Below, piece by piece: positions 9,247 to 13,622 of a stretch of DNA of 29,371 nucleotides. Origin of the DNA: a virus; IMG/VR virus record IMGVR_UViG_3300047317_000774, positions 1-29,371 of that record, one strand, 5' to 3'. Positions within the stretch are counted from its first letter, which is position 1, and every line of letters starts with the position of its first letter. The position numbers and the translations under genes were made by a program. Below the pieces are notes generated by a model. The model ran no database searches and had not been told where the DNA came from. It saw only the letters and a list, made by a program, of their open reading frames with translations.

Positions 9247-9864
9247 TCAGGCAAGCTTCAAATTCGGTTTGTGTTTAGCAAGCAGGGTCTCGGCTTTACG
9301 TCCCAACTCCCCCGCCCGGGCCTCGACCTGACGGCATTGCTCGGCGAACGCCGGAAGATGCGGCAGGTCCTCTTCGCACATCACCTGGTCGTCAAATACT
9401 TCGCTGCCGGTATCGATCACGTCGCCCAGTGCGCGGATCAGCGCACCAAAGCTTTTATTGGCGCATTGGTCGCTCTGCATCTGGCGTGCGCCGGTCAAAC
9501 CGTGGCGGCCAGCCAACTCATTGATGCAGTTGTCGCGAAACTCAGGCTCCAGTGCATTCACCCAGGCCTCTTCCAGCCAAGACGGCATTTCCTGATCGCC
9601 CGAGAGCCAGCGCTGCACGCGCTTCAGCCATCGGCCGGTCGCTTTCACGAATTCACCCACGTCGTTAAGGCGCGCCAACTCATTGAAGTCAGGAACCTTC
9701 GATTCCTTGATCCTCTCCGCTGGAACTCGCAGATAGATCTCCCGGGCCAGCGATTGCGCGAAATCGTCCTGGCTCAAACTGGTTCGGGCGATCTGGTTTG
9801 CTGCGTGTGCTACCAGCACTTGGTCACGGGTTTGGGCGCTATGTCTTGGACTGGACGTTTCCAT
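9247..9864 (-). CDS. Phage protein in the cII position
   Basis: A 205-residue soluble helical protein encoded directly after cro. The N-terminal 40 residues (HAANQIARTSLSQDDFAQSLAREIYLRV) could include a DNA-binding helix pair; the middle has WLKRVQRWLSGDQEMPSWLEEAW; the C-terminus is ALIRALGDVIDTGSEVFDDQVMCEEDLPHLPAFAEQC followed by a coil. The combination of a phage-regulatory position and this C-terminal pattern reminds me of CII-like (CP76-type) regulators of Pseudomonas phages, but I cannot confirm the match. No membrane segment or cysteine cluster. A promoter of the CII-dependent type for cI was not identified. Confidence 0.7.
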   Translation of the reverse strand: METSSPRHSAQTRDQVLVAHAANQIARTSLSQDDFAQSLAREIYLRVPAERIKESKVPDFNELARLNDVGEFVKATGRWLKRVQRWLSGDQEMPSWLEEAWVNALEPEFRDNCINELAGRHGLTGARQMQSDQCANKSFGALIRALGDVIDTGSEVFDDQVMCEEDLPHLPAFAEQCRQVEARAGELGRKAETLLAKHKPNLKLA

Positions 9865-9914
9865 GGGAACTGCTCTCTTCTAATCTGGCTTCAACGGATT
9901 GGCGTGCGGGGGTG

Positions 9915-10121
9915 TCAGGCGGCGGTTCTCTGAACCGGCAACTGGCACGGAAAAGGACGAACCTCCTCCGCTGTCAACTTCCCGTCCTCGTGTTCGATGA
10001 CCAAGATTTCCCTGGCCGCCTTCAAGGCTTTGGAGATGGCTGGTGCGCTAACGCCAAGGCCCTTGGCGACAGCGGACTGACCAATTCGCTCGACCAGTTC
10101 TGGCAGTGGCGTCTTTTTCAT
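9915..10121 (-). CDS. cro: Cro-like repressor
   Basis: Cro is the small repressor that shuts off cI and favours lytic growth. The 68-residue protein has a compact helix-turn-helix (residues 8-38, LVERIGQSAVAKGLGVSAPAISKALKA) and then a short beta part (EILVIEHEDGKLTAEEVRPFP), which is the layout of lambda-type Cro proteins. It is divergent from cI across the operator region 10156-10219 and has GAGG eight bases before its ATG. The predicted pR promoter starts transcription about 25 bases upstream. A 50-base gap separates it from the next gene. Confidence 0.88.
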   Translation of the reverse strand: MKKTPLPELVERIGQSAVAKGLGVSAPAISKALKAAREILVIEHEDGKLTAEEVRPFPCQLPVQRTAA

Positions 10122-10152
10122 GTCGTTGCCTCAGCAAACTTTGTCAGACCAA

Positions 10153-10181
10153 ATATTAACCGCCGGTTAGCTTTCTAGCAA
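10153..10181 (-). promoter_or_regulatory. pR promoter of the lytic operon
   Basis: On the minus strand TTGCTA (10181-10176) and TAATAT (10158-10153) are separated by exactly 17 bases, close to the sigma-70 ideal. Operator O1 covers the -10 and the first half of O2 touches the -35, so bound repressor would block it. Confidence 0.85.
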
Positions 10182-10219
10182 CACCGGCGGTTGCCGCAAT
10201 AAAATTAACCAACGGTTAA
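10156..10219. promoter_or_regulatory. Immunity operators O1, O2, O3 between cro and cI
   Basis: Three related palindromes: TTAACCGCCGGTTAG (10156-10170), CAACACCGGCGGTTG (10179-10193, imperfect left half) and TTAACCAACGGTTAA (10205-10219). The consensus TTAACCGNCGGTTAA is the same as at 13254-13292. O1 and O2 lie on pR; O3 lies just before the cI start. A possible -10 for cI is TAAAAT at 10200-10205, with a poor -35, as expected of a promoter helped by its own repressor. Confidence 0.85.
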
Positions 10220-10228
10220 ATTTCACGG

Positions 10229-11095
10229 ATGAGCAAAAAGAAAGAGCTATCCCCGGAACTGAAAGCTGAGTGCGACGCCGCCAAGGCGCTTTTCGTATCG
10301 AAAAAGAACGCCCTCGGATTGACCCAGGCAAGTCTGGCTGCGGAGGCTGATATCTCGGCCGCTGCGGTAGCGATGTACCTGAACGGTACGAATCCTCTGA
10401 ACGCCAAGTTTGCGGCGGTTCTATCGCGCTTACTTGGCGTTCCAGTCGAGCGCTTCAGTAAGCGACTTGCGCGCGAGATCAGCGGGCTGACAAGTGTCGC
10501 CGAAGCGCCATCAAGCTCGGCGCTCTCAGCCGCTGAGATGGTTCGTCAGATGCTAGATAAGCAGGGTAAAGGACTTACAGACACTGCCAGACAAAGATTG
10601 ATGGCGGCAGCTGAGGCAGATGATGCTGGTGGCGCCATCGAGATTGACTACTACAGGCCAGGCGTTGTGGGTGACGAAGTGTGGATCGCACACTACGACA
10701 TTCGCGCTGCGATGGGTGGCGGCCAGATCCCGCACGACTATCCAGAGATGCTGCAGGATGTCCGAGTAAGCCCCCAGCATCTTCGCGAGATGGGTGTCGA
10801 GTTCAGAGAGCATTTTCATCTGAAAATGGTGACCGGTTGGGGTCAGTCAATGGCGCCGACGATAAAGCATCGCGACCCGCTGCTGGTCGACATCAGCATT
10901 CGTGAATTCGTGGGGGATGGGATCTATATGTTTTCGTGGGAAGGTCATCTCTACATCAAGCGCTTACAGTGGCTGGGCGATGAACAGATCAGGATGATTT
11001 CCGATAACGATCGACATCCACCGCAAACCATCCGGGCAGATGAGACATTCATTCAGGCGCGTGTGCTGCTAGTTTGGAATGCTCAATTGGTATGA
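10229..11095 (+). CDS. cI: CI-like repressor with S24 peptidase domain
   Basis: This is the lysogeny repressor. Residues 12-80 are a Xre-type helix-turn-helix (LGLTQASLAAEADISAAAVAMYLNG). The C-terminal half is a LexA/S24 peptidase fold with the catalytic Ser207 in GWGQSMAPT and Lys244 in HLYIKRL, so RecA-stimulated self-cleavage under SOS is expected. The only Ala-Gly dipeptide before it is Ala133-Gly134, further upstream than the usual cleavage site, so the cut point is uncertain. At 288 residues it is longer than lambda CI because of a longer linker. It is divergent from cro and should bind the palindromes at 10156-10219 and 13254-13292. Confidence 0.93.
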   Translation: MSKKKELSPELKAECDAAKALFVSKKNALGLTQASLAAEADISAAAVAMYLNGTNPLNAKFAAVLSRLLGVPVERFSKRLAREISGLTSVAEAPSSSALSAAEMVRQMLDKQGKGLTDTARQRLMAAAEADDAGGAIEIDYYRPGVVGDEVWIAHYDIRAAMGGGQIPHDYPEMLQDVRVSPQHLREMGVEFREHFHLKMVTGWGQSMAPTIKHRDPLLVDISIREFVGDGIYMFSWEGHLYIKRLQWLGDEQIRMISDNDRHPPQTIRADETFIQARVLLVWNAQLV

Positions 11096-11226
11096 AAGCA
11101 TACCGAACGAACCGAAAGAACGTTTACCCAAAAACGTTAGTTATATATCGATACACCCACAACACATAGTGAGCCACTCATTAAATTTGGCCTGCCATTT
11201 GGAAGGCTGCCTTAGGGGAATAGGAA
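11096..11226 (+). promoter_or_regulatory. Upstream region of the cI-linked cassette
   Basis: The gap is AT-rich. An inverted repeat AACGTT-TACCCAAA-AACGTT lies near 11120-11138, and a weak promoter-like pair is GTTTAC (11122-11127) and TATATC (11144-11149) with 16 bases between. No terminator is visible after cI, so the cassette can also be read from the cI promoter. Confidence 0.4.
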
Positions 11227-12120
11227 ATGGCCGAAGCAAACGTAGTTAGTCGCCCTAAAAAGCAAGAGTATTCGGAGGAGAAATTCATTGTATCGTACGA
11301 TGCCAAAGAGAGTGCACTAGCTCGACACGAGATAAACGCAAAAGATCTTGGCGAAGCGATTTTGGGCATGCACAACCTCATCGAGGAAACTGCTAGCATC
11401 ATCAGTAATGGTTCAGCTGACGTCACCTTGAAGGTAACGACGCCGGCCCAAGAGGGATCAGTAGAAGTTGTATTCGCACTTTTGGCAGATCCAGCGACCG
11501 CCCTAAAAGTATTGGGGATACTAGGCTTCGCAACTCCAGCAGCAGCATTTGTAGGTGGCTCGCTGATTGAGCTTGTTCAACAAATAAAAGGTAAGAAAAT
11601 CACCTCCGTTACTATTGAGGGTGATAGTGAGACCGCCGACATAATGACTGCTGATGGCGTGGTTAAAGCGGATAAAAGGATAGCCAAACTAATCACAAAC
11701 AGCAAAATACGTGATGCCTTACATAAGGTTATTCAAGCACCGCTCACCGGAAAAAAAGACGCTCAATTCAAAGTAAAAGGAAGCGAAGAGAAAACGGTGA
11801 TCTCTATTAAAGAGTCTGCCATTGATGACTTCTCACGCCTTCCAAAGGGCACGCTTGAAGAAATTTCTGTTGAAACTGAAATTGTCAGAGCCTCGTTTGC
11901 CCAAATCAACTTTGAGTCCGCGAAAGGTTGGAGAATTCGAAAACATGATGGTTCTGAATTTGCAGTCACAGTGAAGGATAAGAGCTTTCTTGACAAGGTT
12001 AATAGCAACCAAGCAACATTTCAAAAAGATGACAACTACAATATCACTATTGAAACTACGACCACCTCTAGGCCAACACGATCAACTATCGACCGTGCTA
12101 TAATAAAGGTTGAGGATTGA
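11227..12120 (+). CDS. Cassette gene 1: unassigned protein next to cI
   Basis: A 297-residue protein, AT-rich compared with the phage core. The N-terminal part (FIVSYDAKESALARHEINAKDLGEAILGMHNLIEE) has the pattern of a Tyr-Asp start, a His-x-Ile pair and an Asp-Leu-Gly helix. It is followed by a beta part with EGSVEVVF and a hydrophobic hinge at residues 81-120 (ALLADPATALKVLGILGFATPAAAFVGGSLIEL) that could enter a membrane. The second half is mixed beta strands and lysine-rich loops. The opening reminds me of DUF7946-like proteins, unverified. It heads a three-gene plus operon ending at a strong terminator, the place where phages keep genes expressed in the lysogen, such as exclusion or host-defence genes. 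Confidence 0.85.
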   Translation: MAEANVVSRPKKQEYSEEKFIVSYDAKESALARHEINAKDLGEAILGMHNLIEETASIISNGSADVTLKVTTPAQEGSVEVVFALLADPATALKVLGILGFATPAAAFVGGSLIELVQQIKGKKITSVTIEGDSETADIMTADGVVKADKRIAKLITNSKIRDALHKVIQAPLTGKKDAQFKVKGSEEKTVISIKESAIDDFSRLPKGTLEEISVETEIVRASFAQINFESAKGWRIRKHDGSEFAVTVKDKSFLDKVNSNQATFQKDDNYNITIETTTTSRPTRSTIDRAIIKVED

Positions 12121-12149
12121 TTTTCCTTTAATATTAACGGGGGTGATCA

Positions 12150-12407
12150 ATGTCCGCTTGGAGCCAGCACGATATAGCATTGGCGATGGTGTACCTGTTC
12201 ATGATAATGCTTACTCCATTCGCATTTCGAATAGGTCGCTTGTCGGTAAGGTATATTTACCACAAATACTTTTCCATTGAAGATATTTACGTGACCTACA
12301 AACGAAATGGCGTGGTTACCAGTCGTTTCAAAATACAGAGGAAAAAGGACGGGTCAATTCGGGAAATAGACCTCGGAGTTGGACAGCGGAGCGCGAGCCA
12401 TGAGTGA
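12150..12407 (+). CDS. Cassette gene 2: small membrane protein
   Basis: An 85-residue protein with one clear membrane segment (residues 8-28, IALAMVYLFMIMLTPFAFRIG) followed by a basic cytoplasmic part with paired strands (DIYVTYKRNGVVTSRFKIQRKKDGSIREIDLG). The start has GGGGG 7 bases upstream. It begins 29 bases after gene 1 and its stop lies inside the start of gene 3. It could anchor or gate the soluble partner. I do not recognise a family. Confidence 0.75.
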   Translation: MSAWSQHDIALAMVYLFMIMLTPFAFRIGRLSVRYIYHKYFSIEDIYVTYKRNGVVTSRFKIQRKKDGSIREIDLGVGQRSASHE

Positions 12408-12810
12408 CATCGAACGTCCTTCCTCCAATAGCCGCACGGGGCTAACCGCAACGATTACCGGTTTAATTGTTTCTGTTTCTGCGCTTTTTACTGCAGACTT
12501 ATCGCCCGAAGTTAAAACAATAGTACCTATTATCGCTGGAATCTTGAGCCCATTTATCGCAGCTGGAATTTACAGGCTCCAACGAAGAGTTGAGCAGGAC
12601 CCTAAATTGACAGATTTCCTTTCGGCATATGAGAGCGATTTGAAGTATCAAAAGAATGCTTTGAAAGACCAGAGTCTTTCTGCCGAAGCAAAGGCAGAGT
12701 TAGAGAAAAGATACTCAAATACTGTTTTAAAAATGTCGACGGCCCATCAGGACTTTAGAACCGCCGCACTCCAATTTGAAACAAAAGAGCTTCCTGAAGC
12801 TGGAGAGTGA
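12400..12810 (+). CDS. Cassette gene 3: two-helix membrane protein
   Basis: A 136-residue protein. The ATG at 12400 overlaps gene 2 by 8 bases, which supports this start over one 7 codons earlier. Two hydrophobic segments (residues 15-31 and 41-58) form a hairpin in the membrane. A long charged helix with coiled-coil character follows (residues 60-125, QRRVEQDPKLTDFLSAYESDLKYQKNALKDQ). This layout, a membrane hairpin plus a cytoplasmic coil, occurs in phage superinfection-exclusion and abortive-infection proteins, but I cannot show homology. The strong terminator at 12843-12866 follows 33 bases after the stop. Confidence 0.78.
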   Translation: MSDIERPSSNSRTGLTATITGLIVSVSALFTADLSPEVKTIVPIIAGILSPFIAAGIYRLQRRVEQDPKLTDFLSAYESDLKYQKNALKDQSLSAEAKAELEKRYSNTVLKMSTAHQDFRTAALQFETKELPEAGE

Positions 12811-12842
12811 CAATTCGGTCAGTAAGCCATAGGACTTCAAGT

Positions 12843-12866
12843 GCCCGCCAAATAGGCGGGCTTTTT
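12843..12866 (+). terminator. Terminator of the cI-linked cassette
   Basis: GCCCGCC (12843-12849), loop AAATA, GGCGGGC (12855-12861), then TTTTT (12862-12866). It is a strong rightward terminator that closes the lysogenic unit and insulates it from the leftward DUF1654 gene that ends 8 bases further on. Confidence 0.92.
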
Positions 12867-12873
12867 ATGCGCA

Positions 12874-13182
12874 TCAGAAAGGTGCCGACTCCTGCTCCGG
12901 TTCTACCATTTCTCCTGACCGATCTTTGTTTTCGATCGCTTCCCACCTCAGTGTTACCGACTCATCATCATTGAACGTCATGTCTATGCACTCAGTCTCT
13001 GACAGCAATCCCATCACCTCTTCCCACTCCCTTTCACCGTCCGTGTCCAGCCGATGGATCGTCACCCATCGCTGAATCTGCGCGACCGGGTGATTGATCA
13101 TCGACGACACCCTGAGCGATAGCCGCTCCAGGCCTGACATAGCAACTCTCTCAGGTTGATTTTGTTTTTTCGCCATCGCCAT
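12874..13182 (-). CDS. DUF1654 protein behind a LexA box
   Basis: The 102-residue protein fits DUF1654, a family found mainly in Pseudomonas and its phages. The core is LERLSLRVSSMINHPVAQIQRWVTIHRLDTDGEREWEEVMGLLSETECIDMTFNDDESVTLRWE. It reads as an alpha helix with the invariant-looking Pro-x-Ala-Gln and then a beta/alpha part ending in Leu-Arg-Trp. The acidic tail is not conserved in my memory of the family. Function is not established. The gene is divergent from the plus-strand early promoter, and a LexA-type box 18 bases upstream suggests induction by DNA damage. An RBS (AGGAG) lies 9 bases before the ATG at 13182; an ATG two codons later is also possible. Confidence 0.78.
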   Translation of the reverse strand: MAMAKKQNQPERVAMSGLERLSLRVSSMINHPVAQIQRWVTIHRLDTDGEREWEEVMGLLSETECIDMTFNDDESVTLRWEAIENKDRSGEMVEPEQESAPF

Positions 13183-13200
13183 CTACTTCGCTCCTGATAG

Positions 13201-13216
13201 CTGTACATCCATACAG
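13201..13216 (-). promoter_or_regulatory. LexA (SOS) box
   Basis: CTGTACATCCATACAG fits the CTGT-N8-ACAG consensus of LexA boxes in Pseudomonas and Escherichia. On the minus strand a promoter-like pair TTGGTT and TATGGA with 17 bases between places the box over the -10 region of the DUF1654 gene. Confidence 0.75.
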
Positions 13217-13253
13217 TAAAGCCAAAGGATAACCAAGTCTTCCGGAAATTAAA

Positions 13254-13295
13254 TTAACCGCCGGTATTGACCGCAAAGAAACCGGCGGTTAATTT
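13254..13295 (+). promoter_or_regulatory. Early plus-strand promoter (pL-like) with two immunity operators
   Basis: The promoter is TTGACC (13267-13272) and TAATTT (13290-13295) with a 17-base spacer. TTAACCGCCGGTATT (13254-13268) overlaps the -35, and GAAACCGGCGGTTAA (13278-13292) overlaps the -10. Both share the half-site CGGTTAA/TTAACCG with the cI-cro operators, so the same CI and Cro should control both early operons, as in lambda OL and OR. Confidence 0.85.
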
Positions 13296-13299
13296 ACAC

Positions 13300-13622
13300 C
13301 CATCGCAGCGACACGCAGCCACTGCGAAGGGCCTCAAGAGACCCGTCGCTCTTTAACAGTCAGGAATCTTCGCGGATCGATCCCCGGCAACGGGCATAGC
13401 GCGAAACACAAACTTCGATCCCCATGCAGGCTCTGGAACCTGCCGGACTCCCCATATGGGAGGACGCCAAACCATGCAAGCCAGCCGGCGAAGAACACCG
13501 AACACGAAATGTGTGACGCCGGCCAGGTGGGGAAACCGCGGCGCTGCGCGTGGGATGGAAAACAGATTTCACTGGCTGGCCTTGGCGACAGGGCCAGACG
13601 GGAAATCAACGGGAGCGAGACA
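13300..13622 (+). promoter_or_regulatory. Structured early leader with boxA (nut-like)
   Basis: No gene is evident in these 320 bases downstream of the promoter. A boxA motif CGCTCTTTAACA lies at 13347-13358 and is nearly identical to the rRNA-operon boxA that recruits NusB/S10. Upstream is an imperfect hairpin (13328-13343). Downstream is a short hairpin CCCG-GCAA-CGGG (13383-13394) with a GNRA loop, reminiscent of boxB. Further hairpins are near 13426-13443 (GCAGG/CCTGC) and 13448-13463 (CTCCC/GGGAG). I read it as an antitermination leader for the long plus operon. Confidence 0.6.

Follow-up and report, generated by a model that had tools for sequence, protein, structure and literature searches.

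Which function is served by a compact set of genes that lies directly after a phage repressor gene? The question is raised by the window, a stretch of 29,371 nucleotides of viral DNA analysed at its full length, in which the repressor gene of a lambdoid-like prophage is followed on the same strand by genes for one soluble protein and two membrane proteins. An earlier sequence-only reading had seen in this cassette a plausible sensor–membrane effector system against other phages. The probable role of the module is to protect the bacterium from other viruses. We propose that the three genes form one prophage-carried anti-phage module, of the superinfection-exclusion or abortive-infection type, which would work in a RexAB-like manner with parts that are unrelated in sequence to RexAB, and we assign this reading a probability of slightly under 0.6.

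Organisation of the locus

The repressor gene (10229..11095, + strand) encodes a CI-type protein with a helix-turn-helix and an S24 peptidase domain (Pfam Peptidase_S24, 4.7e-16; HTH_3, 7e-8) and matches the transcriptional repressor family phrog_4 at 2e-37. It is followed on the + strand by gene 1 (ORF1; 11227..12120), which encodes a LAPAL/DUF7946-like/PDC-S42 protein of 297 amino acids and is the proposed sensor, gene 2 (ORF2; 12150..12407), encoding 85 amino acids and a proposed membrane partner, and gene 3 (ORF3; 12400..12810), encoding 136 amino acids and the proposed membrane effector. The start of gene 3 is placed at the ATG at 12400, with an upstream TTG at 12379 that is open too. Between the stop codon of cI and gene 1 there are 131 nt, gene 1 is separated from gene 2 by 29 nt, and genes 2 and 3 overlap by 8 nt. 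The three-gene stretch has a GC content of 43-47%, below the 53-63% that prevails over most of the 10 kb around it. A search for terminators found no candidate site in the interval from cI to gene 1, and the module is closed by an intrinsic terminator on the + strand (12843..12861), composed of a hairpin with seven GC pairs (predicted fold -16.1 kcal/mol) and a following T-run. The cassette beside cI, its AT-rich and tightly spaced genes and the placement of terminators are thus as the sequence-only reading had described them. Judging from this position, the module probably depends on cI for its expression in the lysogen. Beyond the terminator, a DUF1654 gene (12874-13182, - strand; profile match 4.3e-24) is convergent with the module. 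The same gene is found at the same place in most close relatives (L002, L003, L005, L006, L051-L053), and it therefore delimits the slot on its right side.

The genes are real and under purifying selection: measured against the closest relative, dN/dS is 0.02 in gene 1 and 0.07 in gene 3, and gene 2 shows several silent changes and no amino-acid change. Just 5' of gene 1 lies a conserved hairpin-like element, TTTGGCCTGCCAnTTGGAAGGCTG (11188..11211, + strand), with a predicted fold of -9.3 kcal/mol. It is common to five related phages (the window, L002, L003, L004 and L006), the surrounding intergenic DNA having diverged, and in two of the relatives its predicted fold has an energy of -8.0 and -8.9 kcal/mol. 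The element is a possible operator or leader element. An Rfam search of positions 9800-13500 of the window returned no match.

The gene 1 protein and its solo relatives

By profile comparison, gene 1 belongs over its full length to the protein family described as PDC-S42, LAPAL, phrog_3243 and Pfam DUF7946. It matches NCBIfam NF053583 (LAPAL) at 1.8e-58 over residues 20-296, with 198.3 bits against a curated cut-off of 60, PADLOC PDC-S42 at 3.4e-33 over residues 16-296 and phrog_3243 at 1.4e-64. PDC-S42 is also matched by 22 of the 23 gene 1 family members that were scanned. With regard to what this implies, PDC entries are 'guilt-by-embedding' defence candidates (PMC10855318), and the match of gene 1 is evidence of association only, since PDC-S42 is itself such a candidate. 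The NCBI title of NF053583 is 'putative phage structural protein'. A literature search on PDC-S42, LAPAL and DUF7946 found no paper on function. Among the phage records of INPHARED, gene 1 of the window matches none, and the homologue from P. sp. LD120, used as query, retrieves one distant solo match in a Bifidobacterium phage.

The AlphaFold2 model of gene 1 (pLDDT 83) and the predicted regions comprise an N-terminal alpha/beta part, a hydrophobic hinge at residues 81-115, a middle domain and a C-terminal OB fold at residues 212-297. The hinge had already been pointed out by the sequence-only reading and is conserved across the family. The best structural match of the modelled OB fold is the mitochondrial SSB Rim1, with a Z score of 8.2, a level that the search tool rates as possibly a common arrangement, and an rmsd of 2.4 over 79 residues. 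The matches that follow are mainly to SSB, RPA, POT1, ExoVII and HIN-200 domains, such that nucleic-acid binders of the SSB/RPA type dominate. OB folds bind proteins too. For residues 15-210, the search of PDB structures gave no usable match.

Outside the three-gene clade, the relatives of gene 1 are mostly solo genes. They occur throughout Pseudomonadota, with 15 genomes above the cut-off in a sample of 398, and in the Bifidobacterium phage. In their last 14 residues, 19 of 29 distinct solo sequences carry a loose sliding-clamp-binding pattern, with tails such as QLKLPF, QINLDL or QQSLF (the end of L037), compared with 4.5% of other ORF ends and none of the 23 three-gene members. The binomial probability of this excess, 3e-19 with kinship ignored, is descriptive, as the pattern was chosen after the first tails had been seen, many of the solo sequences having been fetched afterwards, and the 29 rows count L092, discussed below, as solo. 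Solo LAPAL/PDC-S42 loci covered by the tail survey were L033, L034, L037, L038, L047, L086-L089 and L104-L114. These tails, read from sequence, suggest that the wider family may dock on the replisome, and they offer a direct idea of what the family senses. The ancestral protein may have been one that is recruited to replication; in the three-gene branch, membrane partners would then have taken the place of this docking. At one solo locus (L079:8415-15542), three methylase-like genes with PglX-like, type II and type IIG profiles come after the gene 1 relative; this cluster lies downstream of a phage-type integrase and is a probable defence island.

The membrane proteins encoded by genes 2 and 3

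The one-helix protein and the membrane hairpin announced by the sequence-only reading are recovered by transmembrane prediction. Gene 2 is predicted to encode one transmembrane helix at about residues 8-26, followed by a basic juxtamembrane stretch and a short cytosolic tail. Gene 3 is predicted to encode a hairpin of two transmembrane helices and a helical, coiled-coil-like C-terminal part, and its AlphaFold2 model (pLDDT 76.5) contains helices at residues 10-33, 36-65, 68-88 and 95-120. Conserved prolines are found in the transmembrane helices of both proteins, including P23 of gene 2, which at least 90% of 18 homologues share.

As judged from these searches, neither gene 2 nor gene 3 matches a described effector convincingly. 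Gene 3 matches phrog_35868 at 1.1e-10, and a fold search with its model returned nothing below an E-value of 0.9. For both proteins, profile searches against solved structures gave chance-level matches only, and neither was matched in the PADLOC scan. Several candidate identities for gene 3 were rejected. The similarity to CyanoTRADDas_TM (E 0.002; 18.7 bits against a cut-off of 24.3; E<=1 in 4 of 22 members) and to SLATT_4 (E 8.6; 6.2 bits against a cut-off of 55) lies below the curated cut-offs, although gene 3 shares with these two-transmembrane effectors a hairpin and a helical cytosolic part. Matches to TIR proteins were sub-threshold. An assignment as holin was rejected as well, the match to phrog_1299 reaching only E 0.011 and the gene lying, in the window, beside the repressor and outside the late operon.

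Co-occurrence, distribution and origin

The co-occurrence of the genes was assessed in 399 Pseudomonas genomes, one per species. The gene 3 profile gave a strong match in seven of them, and the gene 1 family was found above its curated cut-off in the identical seven without exception, the three genes being adjacent and in order, with gene 2 between genes 1 and 3. If the genomes were independent, the chance of obtaining the same seven would be about 3e-15, a figure that shared ancestry makes less extreme. The sequence-only reading had called for such a search and had conceded that it would fall if the genes did not travel together, which they do. One of the seven Pseudomonas copies (G605; L053/L058) has an in-frame stop in the gene 3 region and is possibly a decayed module.

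Among viral contigs, plasmids and genomes, all loci of the gene 1 clade carry the three genes unless the contig ends (L004/L017), and the gene order is kept down to a gene 1 identity of about 31-38%. The carriers are Pseudomonas prophages and megaplasmids and elements of Azomonas, Nitrincola, Actinobacillus and Proteus. In a tree of 48 gene 1 relatives, all three-gene members fall on one side of a branch with a support of 100/98, and the three-gene clade is thus monophyletic and of single origin. Its sister (support 100/99) is a sequence from G930 (L092), which was first labelled solo, as the gene 2 and gene 3 profiles fail to recognise its neighbours. Reading of the DNA shows in the same order a gene encoding 289 amino acids, a second encoding 80 amino acids with one hydrophobic helix and a third whose product of 171 amino acids combines a long, charged helical part with two hydrophobic helices, the latter two genes overlapping by 4 nt. 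Since L092 shares the gene order beyond the reach of sequence detection, the three-gene architecture is more ancient than any similarity that can still be detected between the small proteins.

Genomic settings of the module

The module follows a repressor gene on the same strand in prophages of several types. These include lambdoid-like prophages (the window, L009, L024, L030, L081, L083 and L085), the P2-like prophages L010 and L020, in which the module and the tail hub gene converge, and the Mu-like prophage L014 of Actinobacillus, with the module 3' of the repressor. The repressors themselves differ: those of L006 and L004 align to the CI protein of the window in their C-terminal parts only, yet the module follows. 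Other surroundings are found in a Proteus prophage, with the module between a methylase-like gene and holin/lysozyme-like genes, and in L092, whose copy sits among baseplate genes. The gene just upstream of the Proteus module (L008:3666-4691) reads as a DNA adenine/cytosine methylase with a DPPY motif.

Off phages, two chromosomes carry the module beside restriction-modification genes instead of a repressor. In Nitrincola (L013) it adjoins a type III restriction-modification system and SoFic, and in G636 (L082) an Eco57I-type methylase beside tRNA-Phe. Conversely, the two nearest deposited relatives of the window, PseuP_222 and Aurca01, have different, unrelated genes after cI, which is consistent with an exchangeable slot. 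Neither the annotated LptE-like gene nor the 305-aa gene of PseuP_222 is related to the module. Taken together, the settings are the pattern of exchangeable immunity-region cargo. The proposal of a sensor–membrane anti-phage system gains from the recurrence beside repressors of several phage types and beside restriction-modification genes and from the PDC-S42 match, and the function itself stays at the level of a proposal.

Proposed function and alternative explanations

From the gene structure, the co-inheritance and single origin, the locations beside repressors and restriction-modification genes, the match to a candidate defence family and the predicted OB fold, we infer a defensive role together with its trigger, the protein contacts and the membrane damage. 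The module would be co-expressed with the repressor in the lysogen, where gene 1, by means of its C-terminal OB fold, would sense an infecting phage via its nucleic acid or its replication machinery. The hydrophobic hinge would then let gene 1 contact the products of genes 2 and 3 at the inner membrane, and these two proteins, with their in-membrane prolines, may assemble into or open a membrane-damaging complex, such that the infection is stopped. RexAB-type systems are thought to act by such sensing and membrane disruption (PMC12894663, PMC6426606).

The same membrane proteins could also be accommodated by a block at an early step of infection. Genes 2 and 3 would here obstruct DNA injection or adsorption at the inner membrane, with gene 1 as a regulator or stabiliser and with no killing or arrest of the cell. 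Small prophage membrane proteins beside the repressor often block DNA entry or adsorption, as P22 SieA does, and the products of genes 2 and 3 are predicted to be purely small membrane proteins. However, a cytosolic OB-fold protein of 297 amino acids and the clamp-like tails of its solo relatives point to an input linked to DNA or replication, and chromosomal restriction-modification islands retain the module too, making an early block unlikely. If gene 1 instead bound phage DNA in order to tune the lysis-lysogeny switch, exclusion would be a side effect or absent. The position beside repressors in most prophage loci fits such a role, for which the bias that RexA exerts on the lambda switch provides a precedent (PMC11077077). 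Nevertheless, there is no switch to serve on megaplasmids, in chromosomal restriction-modification islands or in a tail-gene cluster, where the module also occurs, and a switch regulator would need no two obligate membrane partners; we consider lysogeny control rather improbable.

Two further explanations dispense with a specific anti-phage role. A toxin-antitoxin or addiction module would account for the compact operon, the small membrane proteins and the carriage by large plasmids, but the three obligate genes, with the largest first, and the lack of any toxin-antitoxin family match in the profile searches render it very improbable. Barely probable is the reading in which gene 1 encodes a virion protein and gene 3 a holin. 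It could draw on the NF053583 title, on the weak holin profile matches of gene 3 (0.011) and on two locations of the module, just 5' of genes for a holin and a lysozyme in Proteus and amid baseplate genes in L092. Against it, the module is, from its position, transcribed with the repressor in most prophages and antiparallel to the tail genes in the P2-like loci; it occurs off phages, and the Proteus phage has a separate holin-like gene. The module could also serve the lysogen in another way, for example by fine-tuning immunity or by modifying the host.

To return to the RexAB-like defence reading, a more specific history may be sketched, which we hold tentatively and with some doubt. A solo, clamp-docking OB-fold ancestor would have been brought, in a single event, into one operon with two small membrane proteins, would have lost its clamp tail and would have become the replication- or DNA-sensing trigger of a membrane effector. 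In the module, the Rex strategy would then have been invented a second time, independently, and a new class of prophage immunity system would have arisen.

Comparison with known systems

Rex-type exclusion is an old puzzle with regard to what is sensed and how the membrane is hit. RexAB-type systems, of which five were counted in early 2026 (PMC12894663), combine a soluble protein with one or more membrane proteins, all transcribed together with the repressor from the immunity region, and a DNA-linked sensing coupled to a membrane effector has been proposed for them (PMC12894663, PMC6426606, PMC11077077). Those compared here were lambda RexAB, P. putida RexABpp, CarolAnn gp44/43 and Sbash gp30/31. 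The module resembles them in pairing a soluble protein with membrane proteins, and its repressor-linked position on the same strand (10229-11095 followed by 11227-12810 in the window, and in most prophage homologues) is that of lambda rexAB, the classic slot of exclusion genes (PMC12894663).

At the sequence level, gene 1 was rejected as a homologue of RexA (PF15969), as this family was not matched in Pfam at E<=10. In a comparison by hhalign with RexA, based on a thin two-sequence RexA profile, the probability was 0.2 and the E-value 0.38, and BLAST gave only a chance-level match of 29 residues. Furthermore, an RdgC-like fold has been reported for RexA (PMC11077077), whereas gene 1 ends in a predicted OB fold. 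RexA is absent among the fold matches listed for gene 1, which is evidence neither way, as the matches listed concern mainly the OB domain and the N-terminal 210 residues are unmatched. With regard to the effector, RexB-type proteins have four transmembrane segments in a single protein, whereas the module distributes one and two predicted helices over two proteins, neither of which matches PF15968 (RexB) in Pfam. A conserved module that has the Rex layout but is not detectably related to RexAB would show the strategy to have evolved more than once and would provide a second compact system to dissect.

The claim of the sequence-only reading that no system of this composition had been described does not hold, given that gene 1 is catalogued (PDC-S42, NF053583, phrog_3243) and that a system of a TIR protein and transmembrane proteins has been validated (PMC9122126). 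The latter, a prophage defence of the P2-like phage AC1 with three genes for a cytosolic TIR protein and transmembrane proteins (PMC9122126), is the closest described composition. The likeness concerns the composition, namely three prophage genes with one cytosolic protein and transmembrane partners, and the cytosolic component differs, being a TIR protein in AC1, whereas gene 1 has no TIR match in Pfam at E<=10.

PDC-S42 is catalogued as a single-gene candidate, whereas gene 1 of the clade to which the window belongs always occurs with two membrane genes and without the clamp-like tail. The three-gene clade is thus part of the PDC-S42 family and no one-gene system, since its loci carry genes 2 and 3 unless the contig ends, and this corrects the catalogue in that a part of PDC-S42 is an obligate three-gene operon. 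For the same reason, tests of gene 1 alone in the three-gene clade could give false negatives. Another PDC entry was encountered on a P2-like viral contig, where a KAP P-loop NTPase that matches PADLOC PDC-S20 at 2.4e-87 (L023:5336-6736) lies directly after the module.
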